Positions 41,320 through 54,738 of a stretch of 64,000 bases of DNA are shown one piece after another. Within the stretch, counting starts at the first letter, position 1; every line of letters begins with the position of its first letter. A program made the translations under genes and the position numbers. This DNA is from Crocinitomicaceae bacterium (GTDB lineage Bacteria > Bacteroidota > Bacteroidia > Flavobacteriales_D > Crocinitomicaceae), in assembly GCA_022447665.1 (NCBI GenBank), contig JAKVAQ010000006.1:1-64000 (forward strand). Reading direction: 5' to 3'. The notes below the pieces were generated by a model. That model had not been told where the DNA came from. It ran no database searches and saw only the letters and a list, made by a program, of their open reading frames with translations.

Positions 41320-43032
41320 CTAATCTACAACCTCAACAGTCAAAGCATCATCAGTCTTTGTTACTTTGGTTAATCCGTGCTTCCCAAGACCTTTTATCCC
41401 TTTATCCCATTGCTTGTTGGAAAGACCAGCAGCTTCCTTTAGTGCACCTAAATCCATGCTTCCTTCTTTCGAAAGAATATCGAAAATGATTTTTTCATTA
41501 TCAGTTAACTCAGGCCCTGCTGGAGCATCCCATTTTTCTGGACGCATTTGAGGGAAGAAAAGAATCTCTTGGATCGATTGGTTATTGGTCAAGTACATTA
41601 ATAAACGATCCATTCCAATCCCTAATCCAGATGTTGGAGGCATACCATATTCTAATGCTCTCAAGAAGTCTTGGTCAATAAACATTGCCTCATCATCACC
41701 TTTTTCCGAAAGCTTTAATTGCTCTTCGAATCTCTCTCTCTGGTCAATTGGGTCGTTCAACTCAGAGTAGGCATTGGCAATCTCTTTACCACATACCATT
41801 AGCTCAAAACGTTCGGTCAATTCTGGATTATCGCGATGCGCTTTACAAAGAGGAGACATTTCTTTCGGATAGTCTATAATAAAAGTTGGCTGGATGTAGT
41901 TTGGCTCACATTTCTCTCCAAAAATCTCATCAATTAACTTTCCTTTTCCCATCGTTTCATCTACCTCAACGCCTAAGCTTTTTGCGCCTTCTCTCAATTC
42001 TTCTTCCGATTTTCCATGGATGTCAAATCCAGTAAAATCTAGAATTGATTGGCGCATAGTAACCCTTTTATAAGGAGCCTTGAAATCAACTTCATGCTCT
42101 CCAAAAACTGCTTTTGTTGTTCCATTTACTGAAGTCGCACAATGTTCAAGTAGCTTCTCCGTGAAGTCCATCATCCAGTTGTAGTCTTTGTACGAAACAT
42201 AAATTTCCATGGCAGTGAACTCAGGATTATGCGTTCTATCCATTCCTTCATTTCTGAAGTTTTTCGAAAATTCATAAACGCCATCAAAACCACCACAAAT
42301 CAATCTTTTCAAGTAAAGCTCATTGGCAATACGCATGTACAGGGGAATATCTAATGCGTTATGATGCGTCACAAAAGGACGTGCCGCAGCTCCTCCTGGT
42401 ATTGGCTGTAAAATTGGTGTTTCTACTTCTAAGTAACCTGCGTTATTGAAATACTCACGCATAGCATTAAAAAGTTTCGTTCTTTTTACAAAAACATCTT
42501 TTACATGAGGGTTAACCACTAGGTCAACATAACGCTGTCGGTAACGCAATTCTGGATCTGTAAAGGCATCATGAACAGTTCCATCTTCATCTGTTTTTGG
42601 CAACGGTAATGGCTTTAACGACTTAGAAAGAACAGTAAATTTTTCCACTTTCACGGTTGGCTCTCCAACTTGTGTTCTAAAAAGTTCACCTTCAATACCA
42701 ACGAAATCACCTATACCTAATAGTTTCTTATACACGTCATTATACATGGTTTTATCTTCACCAGGACAAATTTCATCTCGGTTAAAATAAACTTGAACAC
42801 GACCAGCGCTGTCCTGAAGTTCACCAAAAGAGGCCTTCCCTTGAATTCTTCGTGCCATTAACCGACCAGCGATAACGACCTTTTTCCCTTCTTCAAAGTT
42901 TTCCTTAATCTTGTCACTTAAATGATTTACAGGATAAAGAGCTGCAGGATAAGGCTCTATGCCCATCTCCCTTAATTTTAGCATGGCCTCACGGCGTTGA
43001 ACTTCTTGTTCAGAAAGCTGAGAATTACTCAT
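41320..43032 (-). CDS. lysS: Lysyl-tRNA synthetase, class II
   Basis: This essential enzyme charges tRNA-Lys. The ATG at 43032 ([20 protein letters not shown]) is chosen over the ATG at 43071 because a TAnnTTTG box on the minus strand (43058-43051) lies between them. The anticodon-binding OB domain (about 55-160) and the class II core follow, with motif 1 ([26 protein letters not shown]), motif 2 ([20 protein letters not shown]) and motif 3 ([13 protein letters not shown]). After the core, about 70 extra residues form a helical domain ([21 protein letters not shown]), a C-terminal extension beyond the standard enzyme. Confidence 0.95.
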
Positions 43033-43050
43033 AGTGTATAATTTGGGGCA

Positions 43051-43058
43051 CAAAGATA
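43051..43058 (-). promoter_or_regulatory. -7 promoter box of lysS
   Basis: On the minus strand TATCTTTG matches TAnnTTTG and lies 18 bases before the lysS ATG at 43032. Confidence 0.5.
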
Positions 43059-43221
43059 ATAGAGCTGGCATTAATATGGGCTTTACATCCTAATTTCAAG
43101 GGTTTTTTTACATATTCCTTTTGCTTTGTTTAGGAATCCAATTCGACAACTAAAAAATTAGATTTTTATGAGGCATCCCTTCAAAACTTCGTGCGTTTAA
43201 CTTCCCAAACAAACACTTAAA

Positions 43222-44469
43222 ATGAAAAAAGTACTTTTTATTTTAACCTTAGCCCTTACCCCCGTTTTTGGGCAAACTACGAAAAGAGCTATTTTCCTAG
43301 GGAATAGCTACACTGCATTCAACAACCTTCCAAATTTGGTTAGCGAATGTGCAACATCTACTGGAGATGAGCTAATTTACTCTTCAAATACGCCAGGTGG
43401 TTATACACTAGAAGGTCATTCTACAAATGCTACATCCCAAAGTTTGATTAAGTCTACGGAGTGGGATTATCTTATTTTACAAGATCAAAGTCAGCGCCCT
43501 TCTTTTCCGGATGCTCAGGTAGCCGTAGAGGTTTTTCCTTTTGCCGAAGCATTAAACGATACATTTAAATTATACAATGAACGCGGACAAACACTTTTCT
43601 ATATGACCTGGGGTAGACAAAATGGTGATGCTGGAAACTGTCCTGTTTGGCCACCAGTATGTACCTATGAAGGTATGGATAGCCTTTTGAATTTAAGATA
43701 CAGAACAATGGCTGCCGACAATGAAGCAGAGGTTTCTCCTGTCGGTGCTGTATGGAGGTATATTCGAGAAAATCATCCATCAATAGATTTATATACGGCA
43801 GACGAGAGTCACCCGTCAGCTGCTGGTTCTTACGTTGCTGCCGTAACATTCTACACAGCAATTTTCAAGAAAGATCCTACATTAATTACATACGACTTCA
43901 CGCTTTCTGCGGAGGATGCAGAAGATATTCGCGAGGCAGCTAAGGTTATTGTTTTTGATGATATGCTCGAATGGCATATTGGAGAGTATGATGTCACTCC
44001 AGCTTGGTCTGTTACCTATGATACTGGTTACACGTATGATTTCACGAATGAATCATTAAATTCTACAAGTGTTGAATGGGAGATTGATGGTACAGTTTAT
44101 ACTACCGATAATCCAACGCATACTTTCCCTTCCGACGGGTATTTTGATGTAATTCTGACCGCCATGAATGAGAGTGATACAATTGTCTTAATCGACAGTG
44201 TTGCAATTGCAGCAGCAGGTTTGAATCAGATTGACGATATGAATATTAGCATCTTTCCGAATCCGGTAGAGAATGATTTATATATTTCTTTTGGGGAACC
44301 AGTGAATGGTACTGTTATTTTATTTTCTGTTGATGGAAAAATTTTATTCGAGCAAGTTGCTGAACAGCAAACAATTATAGAGGTAGATTTTCTTTCTCCA
44401 GGACCATATCTAATTGCATACATGGAAGAAAATGGAACTGTTGTTAAAAGGCAATTCATTAAAGAGTAG
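43222..44469 (+). CDS. Secreted SGNH-like hydrolase with PKD-like domain and T9SS sorting domain
   Basis: The 415-residue protein has a signal peptide (MKKVLFILTLALTPVFGQ), then an SGNH/GDSL-like hydrolase domain (about 20-250). The block I motif is FLGNSYTAFN (Ser 29), DYLILQDQSQ supplies the oxyanion Gln/Asn region, and DESHPSAAGSYVAA gives the Asp/His block. A PKD-like domain (about 265-330; VEWEIDGTVYTTDNPTHTFPSDGYFDV) and a T9SS type A sorting domain (about 340-415; ISIFPNPVENDLYISF to VVKRQFIKE) follow. It is probably a surface esterase or deacetylase. Its stop lies 12 bases before one arm of the 16-bp inverted repeat that reaches the next gene. Confidence 0.83.
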   Translation: MKKVLFILTLALTPVFGQTTKRAIFLGNSYTAFNNLPNLVSECATSTGDELIYSSNTPGGYTLEGHSTNATSQSLIKSTEWDYLILQDQSQRPSFPDAQVAVEVFPFAEALNDTFKLYNERGQTLFYMTWGRQNGDAGNCPVWPPVCTYEGMDSLLNLRYRTMAADNEAEVSPVGAVWRYIRENHPSIDLYTADESHPSAAGSYVAAVTFYTAIFKKDPTLITYDFTLSAEDAEDIREAAKVIVFDDMLEWHIGEYDVTPAWSVTYDTGYTYDFTNESLNSTSVEWEIDGTVYTTDNPTHTFPSDGYFDVILTAMNESDTIVLIDSVAIAAAGLNQIDDMNISIFPNPVENDLYISFGEPVNGTVILFSVDGKILFEQVAEQQTIIEVDFLSPGPYLIAYMEENGTVVKRQFIKE

Positions 44470-44480
44470 AAAAATCAAAA

Positions 44481-44549
44481 CATTTCAGCCATTTTCGCGT
44501 ACACGAAAATTGACCATACTCAAAATTAAGTAGGAAAATGGCTGAAATG
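44481..44549 (+). promoter_or_regulatory. 16-bp perfect inverted repeat covering the start codon of the isomerase gene, with an alternative hairpin
   Basis: CATTTCAGCCATTTTC (44481-44496) is the exact reverse complement of GAAAATGGCTGAAATG (44534-44549), which contains the isomerase start codon at 44538-44540. In RNA the 16-bp stem would bury the ribosome-binding region and AUG. The first arm can instead form a local hairpin, ATTTTCG (44491-44497) with CGAAAAT (44504-44510), which would free the start. The two folds exclude each other, as in a translational switch. Confidence 0.6.
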
Positions 44550-45527
44550 AAAGATTTAATAGCAGGAAAAATTGATCAAATCAATGATGCAATAAGGATT
44601 GGTGAGTCTGCTAATTTCAAACAATATTCTAAAAATTTCTCTGCTATTCTCTTAGTGGGAATGGGGGGTTCAGGAATTGGAGGAAGAATTGTAAGTCAAC
44701 TTTTTAAGGATGAGTTAGAAATTCCGTTCTTAACTCATCATGGTTATGGTGTTCCAAATTTTGTTGATGATAAAACTCTAGTCATTGCATCATCTTATTC
44801 AGGGAATACAGAAGAAACAATAAATTCTGTTCTGGAAATAAAAGCTCGGGGTGCTGAAATTATAGTTATCTCGTCAGGAGGTAATTTGCTGGAAATGGCA
44901 CAGCTAAAAGGATGGAATTATTTTCAAGTACCTGGTGGTGAACAACCGAGAGCGATGTTAGCATATTCAATTGTTCAACAAGTATATGCATTAACTTATG
45001 CCGGTTTAATTTCTGAATTTGCAGTAAAAAGCTTAATTCAATTACCAGAATTAATAGAAGCCTCTGAGGTTTCTACGAAGCTAGCGGCAAGAACCATTGC
45101 TGAAAAATGTTTAGGTAAAACTCCCATTATTTATGCTGGAGAGCAATTTGAAGGTGTTGCAACAAGGTTCAGACAGCAACTAAACGAGAATGCCAAGATT
45201 CTCTGCTGGCATCATGTTTTGCCAGAATTAACGCACAATGAGCTCGTTGGCTGGGCCGGAGGCTCAGATCAATACAATGTCATCTATTTGAATTCTGAGT
45301 TCTATCATGAGAAGACTCATACAAGATGGGCCTTTATGAAAGACAAAATTCAAAACTCTGCCGATTCTGTGATGTCAATTGAAGCGAAAGGTCGTGATTT
45401 ACTAATGCAGACTTTTTATTTAATTCATTTTACGGACTGGGTATCGTATTATTTATCAGAACTTAGAGAGGTAGATCCGAATGAGGTAGACGTGATAATT
45501 GAACTTAAAAAGCATATAGGCGAGTAA
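44538..45527 (+). CDS. Bifunctional phosphoglucose/phosphomannose isomerase
   Basis: The 329-residue protein has two SIS domains in the arrangement of the archaeal-type PGI/PMI enzymes, which interconvert glucose-6-phosphate or mannose-6-phosphate with fructose-6-phosphate. Visible segments are VGMGGSGIGGRIV (about residues 36-48), ASSYSGNTEETINSVLEIKARG (sugar-phosphate loop), VISSGGNL, FRQQLNENAKILCW and the conserved LTHNELVGW with catalytic Glu and His. It is shorter than classical PGI, as expected. Its start codon lies in the second arm of a perfect inverted repeat, suggesting translational control. Confidence 0.9.
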   Translation: MAEMKDLIAGKIDQINDAIRIGESANFKQYSKNFSAILLVGMGGSGIGGRIVSQLFKDELEIPFLTHHGYGVPNFVDDKTLVIASSYSGNTEETINSVLEIKARGAEIIVISSGGNLLEMAQLKGWNYFQVPGGEQPRAMLAYSIVQQVYALTYAGLISEFAVKSLIQLPELIEASEVSTKLAARTIAEKCLGKTPIIYAGEQFEGVATRFRQQLNENAKILCWHHVLPELTHNELVGWAGGSDQYNVIYLNSEFYHEKTHTRWAFMKDKIQNSADSVMSIEAKGRDLLMQTFYLIHFTDWVSYYLSELREVDPNEVDVIIELKKHIGE

Positions 45528-45675: not shown

Positions 45676-48600
45676 ATGAAACAACTTTTTTCACGTATAA
45701 CGATGGTCTTTTTGGCGTTACTACCTTTTGCTGGATTAGCCCAGTTAGACACTAAGCATTATGTTCCACCAATGTTCGGTCGTGAAGACTTAGGAACTCA
45801 TTATATCGTATTAAGTACGCCAGAAGCAATTCCTTTTGATGTAACCATTACGGATGGTTCAGGAACCTTAATCACGACTGAAACTATTTCAAGTGCTGCT
45901 TCTAGTTCTTACACTTTGGGCGCAGGTACTGCCACACCATTCTTGGTTACAGAGGCAGAATTAAACACTGCTCTCACAGGAAAAGGGCTTGTACTTGAGG
46001 CAGATAAGCCTTTCTTTGTTAACATACGTGTTGTTGCTGGCCCTCAAGCAGGTTCTTTAACTTCTAAAGGTGTAAAAGCCGCTCTAGGTAAAGAATTTAG
46101 AACAGGTCACCTCTTTAACAATACAGGCGATTCATTCAGAAAAAGTTCAACGTTCAGTATCATGGCTACAGAAGATGGTACTACAGTTACCATTGACGAT
46201 ATTCGACCTGGTGTAATCTTCAGAGGAACAACTCCTTCGGGTGCTCCTTTAACTTCACCAAGTGTAACGGTGACCTTGAATGAGGGAGAAACTTACGTCG
46301 TTGCGGCTTATATGGATGAGGCAAGTGCAACGGAAAATGTCAACGGTATTAACGGTACACGTATTACTTCGGATAAAGATATTGTTGTGAATACTGGCCA
46401 GTGGTTAGGAGGAAATGCTTTAGTGGGAGGTACTCCTGCAGCAGGACGTGACTTAGGTATTGACCAAATTGTACCAGTAGATAAAATTGGAAACGAATAT
46501 GTTGTAATCAAAGGTGAAGGTATTGATAACGAAAAAGTTATTGTTGTTGCCACTCAGGATGGAACGGACATTATGTTAGATGGTGTGGTAGCGCCAGTTG
46601 CTACTATCGATGCTGGGGATTATTACGTAATCGATGGTACCGCATTTTCAGCGAATGATAACTTGTTTATTCAGACATCAGAAGATGTATATGTGTATCA
46701 ATCTGCAAACGGTGGCGATGGCGCAACAGATGATAATGAGCGGCAAGTAGGCTTAAACTTCCTACCACCAATTGGTTGTTCTGGGTCGAAATCTGTGAAC
46801 TTACCTGAAGTTGATTTCATTGGTACGGCATACATCAATATTATAGCAAATACAGGTGCTACTGTAGTTGTAGATGGAGTTCCTTTAGGAGCAGGTGATG
46901 CCGTTACGGGAACAGGTGATTATGTTACCTATAAATTAACAAGTGGTTATTCGGGCGATATCACGATTACTTCCGATGACCTAATTCGTGTTGCTCTCAT
47001 CAACCTTAGCGGTAATATTGGAGCAGCAGGTTATTTTTCTGGATTTACGAAGGATGTATCTGTATTAACAGAGACAGTCCTTGCCGACGGTATTGCTTTA
47101 GAAGGATGTATTCCTGCTACTTTCACCTTTGGTATTGACGGGGCATCAGCTACAGATACTGAAATCACATACACTATAGGTGGTACCGCAACGAATGGCA
47201 TTGACTATTCTTACATTGATTCCTCTTTAATTATACCTGCTGGTTCTACTGAAGCGACAATTATTGTCAACGCTATTGCAGATGGATTCCCTGAAGGACC
47301 TGAAACCGTTTTTATCATTTATCAACCAGATGCTTGTTCGGAGTTGGATACTGCAGTTCTTACAATTAACGACGCGGTGCCAATTGAGTTTGAGTTAGAT
47401 GGAACAGACCTTTCATGTTTTGAAGATTTTTCTGGTGAAATAGACATTCCAACAACTGGTGGTACCGCTCCTTATACTTATGAGGTAACTACTGATGCCG
47501 GTGCGGGAACCACTACAACGTATACTTCAATGCCAATTACAGGCTTACCAGCTGGAGAATATTCAGTAGCAGTTTTTGATGCTTATGGTTGTACTGCAGA
47601 TGCATTAGTAATTGGTGGAATTTTTGATGCCGACACTACCTTCCTTCCAGATGGTACCGGAGACACTTACACTACTACAATTGATATTTCAGGTTTCGGT
47701 GCCGGTGAAACTCTTGACGATATGAGTCAGCTTCAACAGATTTGTATGACCATGGAGCACTCTTACATGGGTGATCTTGAAATGAAGATTATTGCGCCGT
47801 CTGGCGAGGAAGTTATATTAAAACAATATCCTGGGGGTGGTTCAACTGACCTGGGTGAACCATTCGCTGCGGCACCAGTTGATGGTGCTTCGTCAACACT
47901 CACTGATCCAGGAGTTGGATTCGAGTACTGTTTCAACGACATGCCAATTTTTGGAACAATGGTAGACGAATCGGGTACGTATACACATACTATTCCTTCA
48001 TCTACTGGTGGAACATATACGGATACCTACTTGCCTTCAGGTTCTTATGAATCATTCGAAAACTTAGATGGTTTATTGGGAGCTACACTAGATGGTACGT
48101 GGACTTTAGAAGTTACGGATAACTTGGCATTAGATAACGGATATATATTTACATGGAATATCTCCTTAATATCTGATCTTCCAGACACGTTAGTTACCCT
48201 TCACGAGCCTGATGAAATTGTAATTGATGGTTTTGTTACTGAAGCAACCTGTGGAGTAGCAAATGGATCGATCAATATATCTGCATCCGGAGCATTCCCA
48301 CCATATACCTATTTATGGTCCAATGGAGAAACAACTGAAGATATAACTGGTTTAGATGCAGGTTCATACACGGTATATGTAACCGATGATAATGGATGTA
48401 CAGACTCATCAACATTCATTGTAAACAATACTTCTTCTATTAATATCACTACTACCGTGGTCAATGCTTCTTGTGTTGGATCGTCTGATGGATCAATTGA
48501 TGTGGTTACCTCTGGGGGAACACCTCCTTACACCTTCTCTTGGTCATCAGGAGAAACAACAGAAGACCTTTCTTCTCTAGAAGCTGGCGCTTACACCATT

Positions 48601-51600
48601 ACCGTTACAGATGATGAAGGGTGTATCTATTCAGAAGAGATCATTGTTAACTCTTTACCGCCGATTGTAATTTCTCTTGTTTCTTTAGACAATGAAGAAT
48701 GTGGTACTGGTAATGGAGCTATTGATATTTCCGTAACTGGAGGTACAGGATCTTATGGATATTCCTGGTCATCTGGGGCAACTACAGAAGACATATCAGG
48801 TCTTTCATCAGGAGACTATACAATTACAGTAACAGATGCTAGTGGATGTACAGCTGATGAAACTTACTCATTAATCAATGATGTTTCGGCTTGTTCTGAG
48901 TTCTGTTTCTTGGATGCAGATGCCGTAGTAACGAATGAAGAATGTGGAAACGGTGCTGGAGCATTGGATGTAACTATCACAGATGTGGCATTCCCTTATA
49001 CCGTAGTTTGGTCATCAGGAGAAACAACAGAAGATATTTCAGGTCTTTCGGCTGGTGATTATACCATTACTATTAATGATGCTGATGGTTGTGAACACAT
49101 CGAAACATTCACTGTGGCAAACGAAACTTATTCGCTTGACTTGTCGGCATTTTCAGTTGTGAATGAAAATTGTGGAAATGCTGATGGATCAATCGACATT
49201 ACCGTAGTTGGTGGTTCAATGCCTTATTCATATTCTTGGTCATCGGGCGAAACAACAGAAGATATTTCTGCTCTTTCAGCTGGCGATTATGAAGTAACCA
49301 TAACCGATGCATCGGGATGTGAGTTAACGACAAGTTTCACAGTTGAAAACAATGTTGGAACATTAGAAGTTTCAGAAGTCATTTCAAATGAAGTTTGTGG
49401 CGGAGGAAATGGATCAATCAACATTACTGTTTCTGGAGGAACCGCACCATATACTTATTTATGGTCATCAGGAGAAACTACTCAAGACATTTCTGGTTTA
49501 AGTGCTGGAACATACTCATGCACAATTACAGATGCAACAGGATGTACCTTTACAACAGATGATTACACGGTAATTGACGGAGCAGGAACATTAAACATTT
49601 TTGCCATTGCGAATGAAAATGAGCAATGCGATAATAACTTAGGTTTCATTGATATCTCGGTTACGGGTGGTTCTGCACCTTACGATTTTCTTTGGTCGTC
49701 TGGGGAAACAACGGAAGATATTGCAGGTTTATCAGAAGGAACCTATTCATGTACAATTACTGACGATATAGGATGTGTGTTAACTACAGGAGACATTATT
49801 ATTTACAATGATGGAGGAGACTTAGAGGTAACTACAGATCTTGTAAATGATGAGATTTGCGGAAACGGAGAGGGTTCAATATTTGTTGCAACTACTGGAG
49901 GAACAGCTCCATTCACGTATGACTGGAGTGACGGTTCAACCTCTGAAGATAATACCAACTTAACTGCAGGTGATTATACTTTAATTGTAACAGATGCTGT
50001 TGGTTGTGAGAATGGAGTAACTGAAACTGTAAATAACACAGCGGGAACTCTAGCCATTGAAGGAGCAATTACTATTGACGAAATCTGTGGAAATGGAGCC
50101 GGTTCAATTGATGTAACAATCTCTGGCGGAACAGCGCCAATTGTTTATTCTTGGGATTCAGGGGAAACAACAGAAGATCTTTCTTCATTGAGTGCTGGAA
50201 CATATGTGATTACCGTTACAGATGCAAATGGTTGTGAGGCAACGGAATCTTACACTATAACAAACGATGCTGGTGATCTAGCTGTGTCATCAGCATTAAC
50301 AGCAGAGATTTGTTCTGGTGCAAATGGTGCGATTGATGTAACCGTTACAGGCGGTTCAACACCGTACACCTTTGCTTGGTCATCTGGAGCAACAACAGAA
50401 GATTTAACCGGATTATCAGCTGGAATCTATTCTTCTGTTATTACGGATAATGCTGGATGTTCTGTTTCTACAGGAGATCTTTCTATCGTAAATAATCCAG
50501 GAACTATGACTTCTTCAACAGTGGTTGGGGATGAGACCTGTGGTGATGGTTCAGGAGCAATTGATTTAACAATTACAGATGGAACAGCACCAATTACTTA
50601 TTTATGGTCTACAGGAGCAACAACTGAAGATATTTCTGGTTTATCAGCTGGGATTTACACCTATACAGCCACTGATGCTTCTGGATGTGTGATTAGTGAA
50701 GATATAACGATTATTAACAACTCAGGTACCTTGAGTATTGATGATATTTCAATAACTAATGAGAGTTGTGATGATGATGCGGGCGCTATTGATGTTACTA
50801 TTTCTGGCGGTACAGCACCTTTAGTTTATGCATGGTCATCAGGAGAAACAACAGAAGACATTACCGGATTATCTGAGGGAGATTTCGATTTAACAGTGAC
50901 TGATGCTTCGGGTTGTTCAGTTTCTACAGGCACTATTACAGTTGATAACGATCCTGGTACATTAACAGTAACTGAAGTTATAGTGGTGGATGAAAATTGT
51001 GGAAACGGTGTTGGATCAGTGGATATTACTGTTGGTGGTGGAGTAGCTCCTCTCTCATACTTATGGTCAAACGGTGCAACAACAGAAGACATTAACTTAC
51101 TTTCTGAAGGCACATACACTTGTACGATAACTGATGCTGCTGGATGTAGCATTGATGTTTTGGCCACTGTATTAAATGATGCAGGTGACTTAAGTTTGTT
51201 CTCTTCAACGGTTACGGATGAAACATGTGGAGATGGTTCAGGAGCAATTGACATTACAATTGCTGGTGGAACTACTCCTTATTCTTATGCATGGGCGCAC
51301 GGGCCAACTTCTGAAGATTTAATAGGATTATCTTCTGGTAATTATACTGTATTTGTTACTGATGCTAGTGGATGTTCTACATCAGCCGATTTCACGCTTG
51401 ATAATAGCGGCGGTGATTTGGCCATTTCTTCATTTACTATGAGTGAAGAGAATTGTGGAGATGCTTCAGGAGCTCTTGACATTACGTTCACTGGTGGGGA
51501 GTCTCCTTATACCTTCTCATGGGATAATGGAGCTACTACCGAAGACATTTCAGGATTAGAAGCCGGAGATTATGAGTTGACCATTACAGACATTAACGGC

Positions 51601-54600
51601 TGTTCAATTACTCAAATTTTCACGGTGACCGAGAATGTTGGGGACTTAGCATTAGTATCAGCAGTTGTTACAGATGAGGCTTGTGGTGATGGCGCTGGAG
51701 CAATCGATATTACATTTACTGGAGGTGATGCACCTTTTGTGTTTGATTGGGATTCAGGAGAAACAACAGAAGATATTTCTGGTTTATCGGAAGGAGATTA
51801 TACACTAGTAATTACGGATGCTTTTGGATGTGAAATCACAACGACTGAAACTGTAGTAAATATCTCTGGAGGCTTTGATGCATCGTTCGCTTCCGTTACA
51901 GACGAAACTTGCGGTGATGCTGCTGGTTCAATAGATGTTGATGTTGTTGGAGGAACACCGCCTTATACTTATTCATGGTCGTCTGGAGAAACAACTGAAG
52001 ATCTGTCAGGCTTAAGTGCAGGAGATTACGAATTAACGGTAACCGATGCAGTGGGTTGCGTTCTAACAATTTCTACAACTGTAAATAATAACACAGGTAC
52101 TTTAGCGCTTACAGGTGCGACCGTAGAAGATGAAGATTGTGCAGATGGAACGGGGTTTATTGATATAACCATTACTGGGGGCGCTACACCGTATACCTAT
52201 TTATGGAGTACGGGAGCTATAACCGAGGATATTTCAGGACTCTCTGAAGGAACGTACACTTGTGTAATTACTGATAATGCAGGTTGTGTTCTTAACTATT
52301 CTGGTGATGTTGGAAACTCCGGTGGTGGAATCACTACAGATGTTGTTATTACTCCAGACCAATGTGGAGCAGGTAACGGATCTATCTTAGTAACTGCAAC
52401 TGGAGGAATTAACCCTTATGATTTCTCATGGACAGGTGGCACACCAACAACATGTTGTACATGGACATTAGAAATGTTTGATTCTAGTACGTCTTGGAAT
52501 ACAGCAACAGTTGATGTAATTATCGATGGTGTATCGATTGGAGAATTCACTGTAACTGGTGGAGGATACAACCTTGAAACATTTGAAATTTGTGATGGTT
52601 CTTCATTAGAACTAGTTTGGAACCCAGGCTTCTTTGATGATGAGGTTTCGTTTGACTTATATGATGCTGATGGTGTATTAGTGTTCTCGCAAGGACCTTC
52701 TCCAACACCAGGTACATTATTTACAACTACTGCAACTTGTCCAGGAGCAGGACCAACTTCAACAATTCTTACTGGATTAACTGCTGGAGACTATGAGCTG
52801 ACTATTACTGATGATGTTGGATGTTCTATCACTGAAACATACACTGTTGAACCATTAGAAAGCGATATTGTAATTACAGTAGTTGATGTCACTGATGAAA
52901 CGTGTGGGAACAACAATGGTGTTATTGAGTATACATTATCTGGTGGAACCGCTCCTTTTGTTACTACGGCAAATGGCTTTACTGATGGCCCTCCTGTAGG
53001 ATTATTAGAAAATCTATACGCAGACACATGGGAGATTATTACCGTAGATGATAACGGATGTACGGATACCTTGGATGTGATTGTTGACAACATCGCTACA
53101 TTCACAACTACTGCAGTATTAACGAATGACTTCTGTTCAGGTGGTATTGGTGCTATCGATATTACTGTAACAGGTGAGTCAGGAACACTAGATTTTGATT
53201 GGGATTCTGGGGAAACTACTGAAGATCTAACAGGATTAACAGCGGGTACTTACACGGTAACAATTACAGATAATGTATTCGGACCTGGTGATTGTGAGGA
53301 TGAGGTAGAATTCACAATAATTGATACTACCGACGTATTGCTTTCTGCAACATCCATTGATGATTTATGTTCTGGTGGAACAGGTTCTATTGATCTTTCT
53401 TTGGATGACGAAACTGATGTGACGATTTTATGGAGCACAGGTGAAACGACAGAAGACATCTCAGGTCTTTCAGAGGGTACTTATTCTGTAACAGTTACTT
53501 CGAATGTAACAGGCTGTGAAGAGACATTAGATATTGAAATATTTAATGCATCGGACTTCACATTCTTAACGGCGGTAACGGATGATGTTTGTAATGACTC
53601 TATTGGAGCAATTGACTTAACGATCATTGGAGGAACAGACATGGTATTCGAATGGAGTAATGGTGAAACAACAGAAGACTTAACTGATATTCCTGAGGGA
53701 ACTTATAAAGTCATTATGACCAATAATACAACTGGATGTGTTGACTCGACAGAAGTAACGGTGGGTAACTCAACTTCTGGAATTGATGGTACAATTGTAG
53801 TTACAGATGAGTATTGTGATGGAGATAACGGTGCGCTTGATCTAACTGTAACAGGTGCAATTGGAACACCTTCATTTGAATGGAGCACAGGAGAGATGAC
53901 AGAAGACATTTCTGGATTGACTTCAGGTGACTATTCGGTAATAATTACAGATGATGCCGACGGATGTCAAGCAATTGTTTTTGCTACAGTTGATTCACTA
54001 AATACTGACCTTGCCGGTTCAATAGTCGCCACGGACGAGCTCTGTGGAGATGGAACAGGTGCGTTAGACCTAACTGTTACGGATGCTATAGGAACATTGA
54101 CATATGATTGGTCTACTGGTGAGACAACAGAGGATATTTCTGGATTAAATGCTGGTACGTATTCAGTAACAGTTACGGATGATGCTTATGGTTGTCAGAT
54201 TACCTTGGATGGAGTAGTTAACAACGAAACTACTTTCGAAGCTGTGTTGGTAGATGTTGTTGATGCCATATGTGCAACTTGTCCTACAGGATCTATTGAT
54301 ATTACGATAAATGAATTCGTAGGAGATGGTCCTTACACGTTTGATTGGAGTAATGGTGAAACAACAGAAGATATTTCTGACTTAGTGCCTGGAATATATG
54401 AAGTTGTGGTAACTAGTGCTTCAGGATGTACAGACACACTTGAAATTGAAGTAGGAAATTCTCAATCAGTAGGAATTTACGACCTTCCAGAATGGGAACT
54501 GAATTTATATCCTAATCCTTCATTAAATGACTTTACATTAGATTATAACTTTAATTCTAATGAACCTGTCTTGATGACTATGGTAGACTTATCAGGTAAA

Positions 54601-54738
54601 ACTGTTTATGTAACTACCCTTGAGGATGTAGAAGGGAAGATTCAAGTAGGAACAAGTCATCTAGAAGGAGGAGTTTATTATATAAGATTCCAGAGCAAGG
54701 ATGAGCAACAGATTCTGAAGTTTACTTTAGTACGATAA
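45676..54738 (+). CDS. Giant SprB-repeat surface adhesin with T9SS sorting domain
   Basis: The 3020-residue exported protein has a signal peptide (MKQLFSRITMVFLALLPFAGLAQ) and an N-terminal IgGFc-binding-like beta region (about 30-460). A Calx-beta-like segment (about 480-570; GGTATNGIDYSYIDSSLIIPAGS), one early SprB repeat (about 570-650) and a proprotein-convertase P domain (about 655-840; MEHSYMGDLEMKIIAPSG) follow. Then come about 26 SprB repeats of roughly 75 residues (about 850-2930), each with a WSSGETTEDISGLSAG core and usually two Cys. A different domain of about 100 residues is inserted in repeat 19. The protein ends in a T9SS type A domain (LNLYPNPSLNDFTL). SprB relatives are mobile gliding adhesins, so this is probably a surface adhesin. 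Confidence 0.92.
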   Translation: MKQLFSRITMVFLALLPFAGLAQLDTKHYVPPMFGREDLGTHYIVLSTPEAIPFDVTITDGSGTLITTETISSAASSSYTLGAGTATPFLVTEAELNTALTGKGLVLEADKPFFVNIRVVAGPQAGSLTSKGVKAALGKEFRTGHLFNNTGDSFRKSSTFSIMATEDGTTVTIDDIRPGVIFRGTTPSGAPLTSPSVTVTLNEGETYVVAAYMDEASATENVNGINGTRITSDKDIVVNTGQWLGGNALVGGTPAAGRDLGIDQIVPVDKIGNEYVVIKGEGIDNEKVIVVATQDGTDIMLDGVVAPVATIDAGDYYVIDGTAFSANDNLFIQTSEDVYVYQSANGGDGATDDNERQVGLNFLPPIGCSGSKSVNLPEVDFIGTAYINIIANTGATVVVDGVPLGAGDAVTGTGDYVTYKLTSGYSGDITITSDDLIRVALINLSGNIGAAGYFSGFTKDVSVLTETVLADGIALEGCIPATFTFGIDGASATDTEITYTIGGTATNGIDYSYIDSSLIIPAGSTEATIIVNAIADGFPEGPETVFIIYQPDACSELDTAVLTINDAVPIEFELDGTDLSCFEDFSGEIDIPTTGGTAPYTYEVTTDAGAGTTTTYTSMPITGLPAGEYSVAVFDAYGCTADALVIGGIFDADTTFLPDGTGDTYTTTIDISGFGAGETLDDMSQLQQICMTMEHSYMGDLEMKIIAPSGEEVILKQYPGGGSTDLGEPFAAAPVDGASSTLTDPGVGFEYCFNDMPIFGTMVDESGTYTHTIPSSTGGTYTDTYLPSGSYESFENLDGLLGATLDGTWTLEVTDNLALDNGYIFTWNISLISDLPDTLVTLHEPDEIVIDGFVTEATCGVANGSINISASGAFPPYTYLWSNGETTEDITGLDAGSYTVYVTDDNGCTDSSTFIVNNTSSINITTTVVNASCVGSSDGSIDVVTSGGTPPYTFSWSSGETTEDLSSLEAGAYTITVTDDEGCIYSEEIIVNSLPPIVISLVSLDNEECGTGNGAIDISVTGGTGSYGYSWSSGATTEDISGLSSGDYTITVTDASGCTADETYSLINDVSACSEFCFLDADAVVTNEECGNGAGALDVTITDVAFPYTVVWSSGETTEDISGLSAGDYTITINDADGCEHIETFTVANETYSLDLSAFSVVNENCGNADGSIDITVVGGSMPYSYSWSSGETTEDISALSAGDYEVTITDASGCELTTSFTVENNVGTLEVSEVISNEVCGGGNGSINITVSGGTAPYTYLWSSGETTQDISGLSAGTYSCTITDATGCTFTTDDYTVIDGAGTLNIFAIANENEQCDNNLGFIDISVTGGSAPYDFLWSSGETTEDIAGLSEGTYSCTITDDIGCVLTTGDIIIYNDGGDLEVTTDLVNDEICGNGEGSIFVATTGGTAPFTYDWSDGSTSEDNTNLTAGDYTLIVTDAVGCENGVTETVNNTAGTLAIEGAITIDEICGNGAGSIDVTISGGTAPIVYSWDSGETTEDLSSLSAGTYVITVTDANGCEATESYTITNDAGDLAVSSALTAEICSGANGAIDVTVTGGSTPYTFAWSSGATTEDLTGLSAGIYSSVITDNAGCSVSTGDLSIVNNPGTMTSSTVVGDETCGDGSGAIDLTITDGTAPITYLWSTGATTEDISGLSAGIYTYTATDASGCVISEDITIINNSGTLSIDDISITNESCDDDAGAIDVTISGGTAPLVYAWSSGETTEDITGLSEGDFDLTVTDASGCSVSTGTITVDNDPGTLTVTEVIVVDENCGNGVGSVDITVGGGVAPLSYLWSNGATTEDINLLSEGTYTCTITDAAGCSIDVLATVLNDAGDLSLFSSTVTDETCGDGSGAIDITIAGGTTPYSYAWAHGPTSEDLIGLSSGNYTVFVTDASGCSTSADFTLDNSGGDLAISSFTMSEENCGDASGALDITFTGGESPYTFSWDNGATTEDISGLEAGDYELTITDINGCSITQIFTVTENVGDLALVSAVVTDEACGDGAGAIDITFTGGDAPFVFDWDSGETTEDISGLSEGDYTLVITDAFGCEITTTETVVNISGGFDASFASVTDETCGDAAGSIDVDVVGGTPPYTYSWSSGETTEDLSGLSAGDYELTVTDAVGCVLTISTTVNNNTGTLALTGATVEDEDCADGTGFIDITITGGATPYTYLWSTGAITEDISGLSEGTYTCVITDNAGCVLNYSGDVGNSGGGITTDVVITPDQCGAGNGSILVTATGGINPYDFSWTGGTPTTCCTWTLEMFDSSTSWNTATVDVIIDGVSIGEFTVTGGGYNLETFEICDGSSLELVWNPGFFDDEVSFDLYDADGVLVFSQGPSPTPGTLFTTTATCPGAGPTSTILTGLTAGDYELTITDDVGCSITETYTVEPLESDIVITVVDVTDETCGNNNGVIEYTLSGGTAPFVTTANGFTDGPPVGLLENLYADTWEIITVDDNGCTDTLDVIVDNIATFTTTAVLTNDFCSGGIGAIDITVTGESGTLDFDWDSGETTEDLTGLTAGTYTVTITDNVFGPGDCEDEVEFTIIDTTDVLLSATSIDDLCSGGTGSIDLSLDDETDVTILWSTGETTEDISGLSEGTYSVTVTSNVTGCEETLDIEIFNASDFTFLTAVTDDVCNDSIGAIDLTIIGGTDMVFEWSNGETTEDLTDIPEGTYKVIMTNNTTGCVDSTEVTVGNSTSGIDGTIVVTDEYCDGDNGALDLTVTGAIGTPSFEWSTGEMTEDISGLTSGDYSVIITDDADGCQAIVFATVDSLNTDLAGSIVATDELCGDGTGALDLTVTDAIGTLTYDWSTGETTEDISGLNAGTYSVTVTDDAYGCQITLDGVVNNETTFEAVLVDVVDAICATCPTGSIDITINEFVGDGPYTFDWSNGETTEDISDLVPGIYEVVVTSASGCTDTLEIEVGNSQSVGIYDLPEWELNLYPNPSLNDFTLDYNFNSNEPVLMTMVDLSGKTVYVTTLEDVEGKIQVGTSHLEGGVYYIRFQSKDEQQILKFTLVR
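48225..54475 (+). repeat. About 26 tandem SprB repeats within the adhesin gene
   Basis: The unit is about 225 bases. Protein cores are strongly conserved (YxWSSGETTEDISGLSxGxYxxTITDxxGC). At DNA level short blocks such as TCAGGAGAAACAACAGAAGA recur almost unchanged many times, while flanks differ. Unit number may therefore vary by recombination between strains, and the region is prone to assembly collapse. Confidence 0.9.

Follow-up and report, generated by a model that had tools for sequence, protein, structure and literature searches.

The window analysed here, a 64,000-nucleotide stretch of a Crocinitomicaceae genome, contains a gene for a bifunctional phosphoglucose/phosphomannose isomerase whose start region forms one arm of a perfect inverted repeat. 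The genes and elements around it are as follows.

41320–43071, minus strand: lysS, with its own −7 box, TATCTTTG, at 43051–43058
43222–44469, plus strand: gene for a secreted protein (hydrolase), DUF4886-like, with a T9SS sorting tail, between lysS and the isomerase gene
44481–44496, plus strand: arm 1, CATTTCAGCCATTTTC, likely the derived copy
44491–44510: near-palindrome ATTTTCGCGT/ACACGAAAAT, 20 bp as DNA with 9 of 10 pairs, including the local hairpin ATTTTCG/CGAAAAT; a possible operator
44494–44500, plus strand: TTCGCGT, corresponding to the family element TTCACGT and overlapping the end of arm 1 through TTTTC
44497–44533: spacer between the arms, 37 nt
44521–44528, minus strand: TAATTTTG, a strong Bacteroidota −7 box directed away from the isomerase gene
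44534–44549, plus strand: arm 2, GAAAATGGCTGAAATG, the start region with ATG 44538 and ATG 44547, likely the source
44547–45527 (alternative start 44538), plus strand: the isomerase gene

Because its −7 box lies at 43051–43058, lysS probably has its true start near 43032. Adjoining the isomerase gene, 45676–54738 encodes a protein of 3020 residues in which an IgGFc-binding domain and a T9SS sorting tail accompany 20 SprB repeat stretches.

The identity first proposed for the isomerase gene is borne out by matches to PF10432 (E 1.6e-45), a SIS domain and PRK08674-type NCBIfam models. The classical PGI family PF00342 had no match in the nine genomes searched, the window's own included, and the window's isomerase protein had a single match (bact-PGI) in its own genome; this gene is therefore probably the sole glucose-6-phosphate isomerase. 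With relatives aligned on the GxGGSGI motif, an ATG stood exactly at the place of 44547 in 32 of 38 and within a few codons of it in the other six, and none of the 38 had an ATG at the place of 44538. ATG 44538 has A at −3 and −6, the type of start context described for Flavobacterium johnsoniae (PMC6847099, in excerpt), and ATG 44547 does not. The proposed sequestration of the start codon stands for either choice, since both lie inside arm 2, but 44538 itself is doubtful because the relatives align to 44547.

The two arms are complementary at 16 of 16 positions and lie 37 nt apart, just as originally described. Perfect repeats of at least 16 bp with spacers of 15–100 nt occurred four times in 811,189 sampled bases of the window's genome (about 20%): the one at the isomerase start, an 18-bp one, one within a repeated element and, judged by eye, one beside a tRNA-like sequence. 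Third-order Markov sequence of 4.06 Mb yielded none, with one repeat of 15 bp and two of 14 bp, and 400 kb scanned from a relative (G004) had a longest perfect repeat of 14 bp at these spacers. The empty Markov control against four in 811 kb of genome places the repeat above local chance, and the excess of perfect long-spacer repeats therefore agrees with a copying process. The claim that chance is very unlikely thus holds for the window but needs tempering, as such repeats recur in this genome; a scan across very many windows would still find a few.

The 121-nt leader was predicted to fold at −30.4 kcal/mol, which was equalled in 0 of 200 shuffles (z −5.64). In read-through mRNA the predicted probability that the codon is unpaired was 0.002 for 44538 and 0.005 for 44547, and in transcripts starting at 44497–44525 it was 0.60–0.95 and 0.39–0.48, respectively; by prediction, the start codon is buried in long transcripts and free in short ones. 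Such burial would be physically sound if arm 1 is transcribed, and if the main mRNA includes arm 1, the hairpin must act on that mRNA. Since the isomerase is probably the only one, native transcripts must escape the hairpin. The local hairpin ATTTTCG/CGAAAAT, earlier proposed as a competitor, is real and mutually exclusive with the long one but weak: with predicted energies of −24.0 kcal/mol for the long and −4.4 kcal/mol for the local hairpin there is no equilibrium competition and so no balanced switch, and in this model any role for the local hairpin would be confined to the time before arm 2 has been transcribed. The sequence after arm 2, AAAGATTTAA, has no T run, and we rejected an intrinsic-terminator reading for that reason. 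A search for intrinsic terminators (G+C-rich stem plus T run) likewise found no plus-strand site between the hydrolase and isomerase genes.

We compared the locus with 38 of 40 loci fetched from other genomes, leaving out L038, whose gene is cut by a contig end, and L039, which is archaeal; one relative set drew loci from the best 30 places only, the window's own genome among them. Sixteen close relatives (51–56% protein identity) comprise all those with E passing 1e-90 among 239 other genomes of the family, and a genus search returned only the window's own genome, a singleton. No comparable arm pairing occurred in any of the 38 relatives' leaders, where perfect matches of the start region to the 80 nt preceding it reached at most 5–8 nt and duplex energies were mostly shuffle-like. 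With the pairing missing from all 38 there is no covariation, and the repeat appears lineage-specific as far as is visible, the nearest compared species being about 56% identical in protein. Leaders are too diverged to align at family level, and the genus offers no second genome for the parental sequence lacking arm 1. The original prediction, an RNA switch for sugar phosphates, had put forward a comparison of leaders for compensatory changes as its check; the arms proved unconserved at family level, the outcome it had named as counting against it, and the switch claim falls with the absent pairing. No Rfam family reached its gathering score between 43000 and 45000. Three sub-threshold rows (E 0.18 to 0.78), one of them a miRNA-precursor family over the hairpin, lay far below gathering and were taken as chance. 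We therefore rejected a conserved RNA switch, which has neither a counterpart in the 38 relatives nor a gathering-score match in Rfam.

The gene order around the repeat is itself unusual. In all 16 close relatives lysS (73–84% identical) lies divergently and directly upstream of the isomerase gene, and none of the 16 has a hydrolase homologue between the two; within the family, hydrolase homologues occur in 210 of 240 genomes, the window's own counted. Upstream of the isomerase gene, 13 of the 16 carry TTCACGT, 76–78 bp from the lysS −7 box. The offset from TTCACGT to the isomerase −7 box, TAnnTTTG, is 17 nt in all eight close relatives that have both, although five others have TTCACGT without TAnnTTTG after it, so that the geometry is not universal. 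Both strands of 433 kb together contain 24 copies of TTTC[AG]CGT, from which about 0.002 occurrences would be expected in this gap. As arm 1 overlaps the element that precedes the −7 box in relatives, native transcription probably begins 3′ of arm 1; by homology, the window's own native transcript would probably lack it. The window's leader has no good −7 box facing the isomerase gene, its best score (1.88) being reached or exceeded by 90% of 296 leaders. An earlier alternative, that the hairpin silences read-through mRNA from the hydrolase gene, fits better than a switch, given the lysS synteny in 16 of 16 and the position of arm 1 over a promoter-side element; this effect may or may not be under selection.

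The explanation we prefer, at roughly even confidence, is that arm 1 was recently copied from the start region by a template switch and mutes read-through mRNA, whether incidentally or usefully. The hydrolase gene now separates lysS from the isomerase gene, a divergent pair in close relatives. A nascent strand ending in GAAAAT, the complement of the promoter-side TTTTC element, would have re-primed on the ATTTTC that lies opposite the start codon, been extended there by ten further bases (GGCTGAAATG) and then gone back to its original template, making arm 1 in one switch. In read-through mRNA from the hydrolase gene, arm 1 would then fold onto arm 2 and hide both AUGs, so that little isomerase is made, and mRNA from the isomerase gene's own promoter would start downstream of arm 1 and be translated. 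We infer the template-switch origin, the native start position and the silencing in the cell; overall, the repeat is probably a young mutational product with plausible read-through silencing, neither a demonstrated nor a conserved switch.

Several features of the arms point to such copying. Arm 1 is a perfect local reverse complement, nested on a short seed and absent in relatives. The seed ATTTTC (6 nt) is part of the family's TTTTCACGT-like element, and the other ten bases of arm 1 match the start region. One relative (L011) is identical over 23 nt that begin with CTGAA, include the ATG and extend into the coding sequence, and CTGAAATG was found in one of the 16 close relatives. Arm 2 therefore looks ancestral, as CTGAAATG and the coding bases that follow match L011 and arm 1 has no counterpart; the direction of copying is read from this 8-nt start-region match in one relative.

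Template switching has been reported to produce perfect stems in one event (PMC8794818, in excerpt), and in the yeast gene REG2 it reportedly lengthened a 5-bp repeat to 16 bp (available part of PMC8604942). Our case resembles these quasipalindrome mutations, both at REG2 and in RNA-gene stems, in having a short seed followed by a perfect reverse-complement arm; in the excerpts of those two reports, one event makes the arm and the product can resemble a functional hairpin, as it does here. It differs in its bacterial start-codon region and in its spacer. The spacers of template-switch repeats in yeast were shorter than those of other repeats, and the inverted ones measured 2–5 bp (PMC8604942, same excerpt), so the 37 nt found here count against a template-switch copy. 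If this origin is correct, it suggests that a rearranged promoter region may gain a start-codon-sequestering hairpin in a single step, with no prior selection for a switch. It also urges caution: perfect repeats should not be taken for riboswitches.

Next in standing, though unlikely in our estimate, is that selection has kept the hairpin for uncoupling the production of isomerase from the hydrolase gene newly placed upstream. A co-directional gene upstream of the sole isomerase gene, unlike the arrangement in close relatives, would give such a device a role, as would the lack of a terminator-like plus-strand site between the two genes, and the predicted burial of both AUGs in long transcripts only is what it requires. 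A recent copy, however, predicts the perfect pairing equally well. The nearest parallel is fold-back inhibition of transposase mRNAs of the IS10/IS50 type, in which the initiation region is paired with an inverted repeat lying upstream of it, in read-through transcripts only. The two are alike in leaving shorter native transcripts free (here by prediction); unlike those elements, our locus has no transposon ends and concerns a housekeeping gene. A literature search on read-through silencing returned nothing on point, IS10/IS50 fold-back included.

We think it quite unlikely that the repeat is a miniature invertible promoter, with the 37-bp spacer flipping between the arms. After a flip, the isomerase gene would be driven by TAATTTTG and have a 5′ leader of roughly 20–30 nt lacking arm 1; in the orientation sequenced, the promoter would point away and read-through mRNA would be silenced by the hairpin. 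By score, the repeats do flank a promoter that one of the two orientations would direct at the gene. Scoring of the spacer gave 11.46 reversed and 1.84 as sequenced; in the comparison with leaders, the flipped −7 score is 11.52 as against 1.88 for the present orientation, within the top 1.4% of the 296 leaders and matched by none of 297 coding controls, and antisense scores of at least 11 at −51 to −15 occurred in 0 of 249 leaders and 0 of 4000 random pieces. TAATTTTG also fits the F. johnsoniae consensus TAHHTTTG, and leaders in that species average 33 nt (both from the excerpt of PMC6847099). Weighing against these scores, the test was picked post hoc with the sequence already seen, 7 of 249 leaders had antisense scores of at least 8, start regions are rich in A, the spacer is short and the TTCGCGT element matches relatives better in its present orientation. 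Alignment of the spacer, in either orientation, to the leaders of the 16 relatives gave no score above shuffles that would decide which is ancestral.

The recombination machinery also argues against the flip. The genome search found neither an invertase nearby nor shared recombination sites: three tyrosine recombinases lie in the genome, none of them on the window's contig, together with one short resolvase match. The arms themselves were rejected as recombination sites, as a search allowing up to two mismatches found no third exact copy in the genome. Known Bacteroidota invertible promoters are alike in that inverted repeats of 10–40 nt flank a −7 box of the phylum's type, and they often lie near surface-modification genes (both from the part of PMC11892184 available), whereas here the spacer is 37 bp, no invertase gene is nearby and the gene is metabolic, the sole central isomerase. 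Template switching can invert spacers (PMC8604942, in excerpt), which makes it conceivable that a small switch works by flipping or that the spacer flipped once in the past. We hold it very unlikely that a 37-bp promoter is flipped through the hairpin by template switching rather than by an invertase, and give the same low credence to the double lock that would result, in which one state lets the −7 box drive the sole isomerase from a leader without arm 1 and the other shuts off read-through by start-codon pairing. If the spacer does flip, it would be an invertase-free phase switch, unusually small, on a central metabolic gene.

Improbable, too, is that a dimeric regulator binds the palindrome at 44491–44510, the longer repeat being incidental. 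The palindrome's 9 of 10 symmetric pairs sit atop the family element, but relatives' elements look less symmetric by eye, and TTTTCG-N6-CGAAAA occurs at only one other place in the genome; with one further site, a palindrome regulon was rejected. Less probable again is a translational switch through which the isomerase mRNA would respond to a ligand or to temperature: the stable fold (z −5.6) and the two mutually exclusive hairpins would suit it, but none of the 38 relatives has the pairing, the Rfam search yielded nothing at gathering score and −24.0 versus −4.4 kcal/mol leaves no balance. Plain coincidence among very many scanned windows is the least credible account, for while the Markov counts (one of 15 bp and two of 14 bp per 4.06 Mb) imply a few 16-bp repeats across many genomes, this genome has four in 811 kb and the present one is placed exactly over the start codons.

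Two other repeats were seen. One is a perfect inverted repeat of 18 bp (L062, 15320–15377; spacer 22 nt) that lies between divergent genes, about 75 nt ahead of a gene that by eye resembles one for a sensor kinase; it is a further candidate for a template-switch or regulatory hairpin. An imperfect inverted-repeat element of about 128 bp recurs at short intervals (L084, 5684–5811, and contigs C1, C5, C18, C53 and C58 of the window's genome), with 15 matches on both strands, and from its look we presume that it may represent attC-like sites of a chromosomal gene-cassette array.
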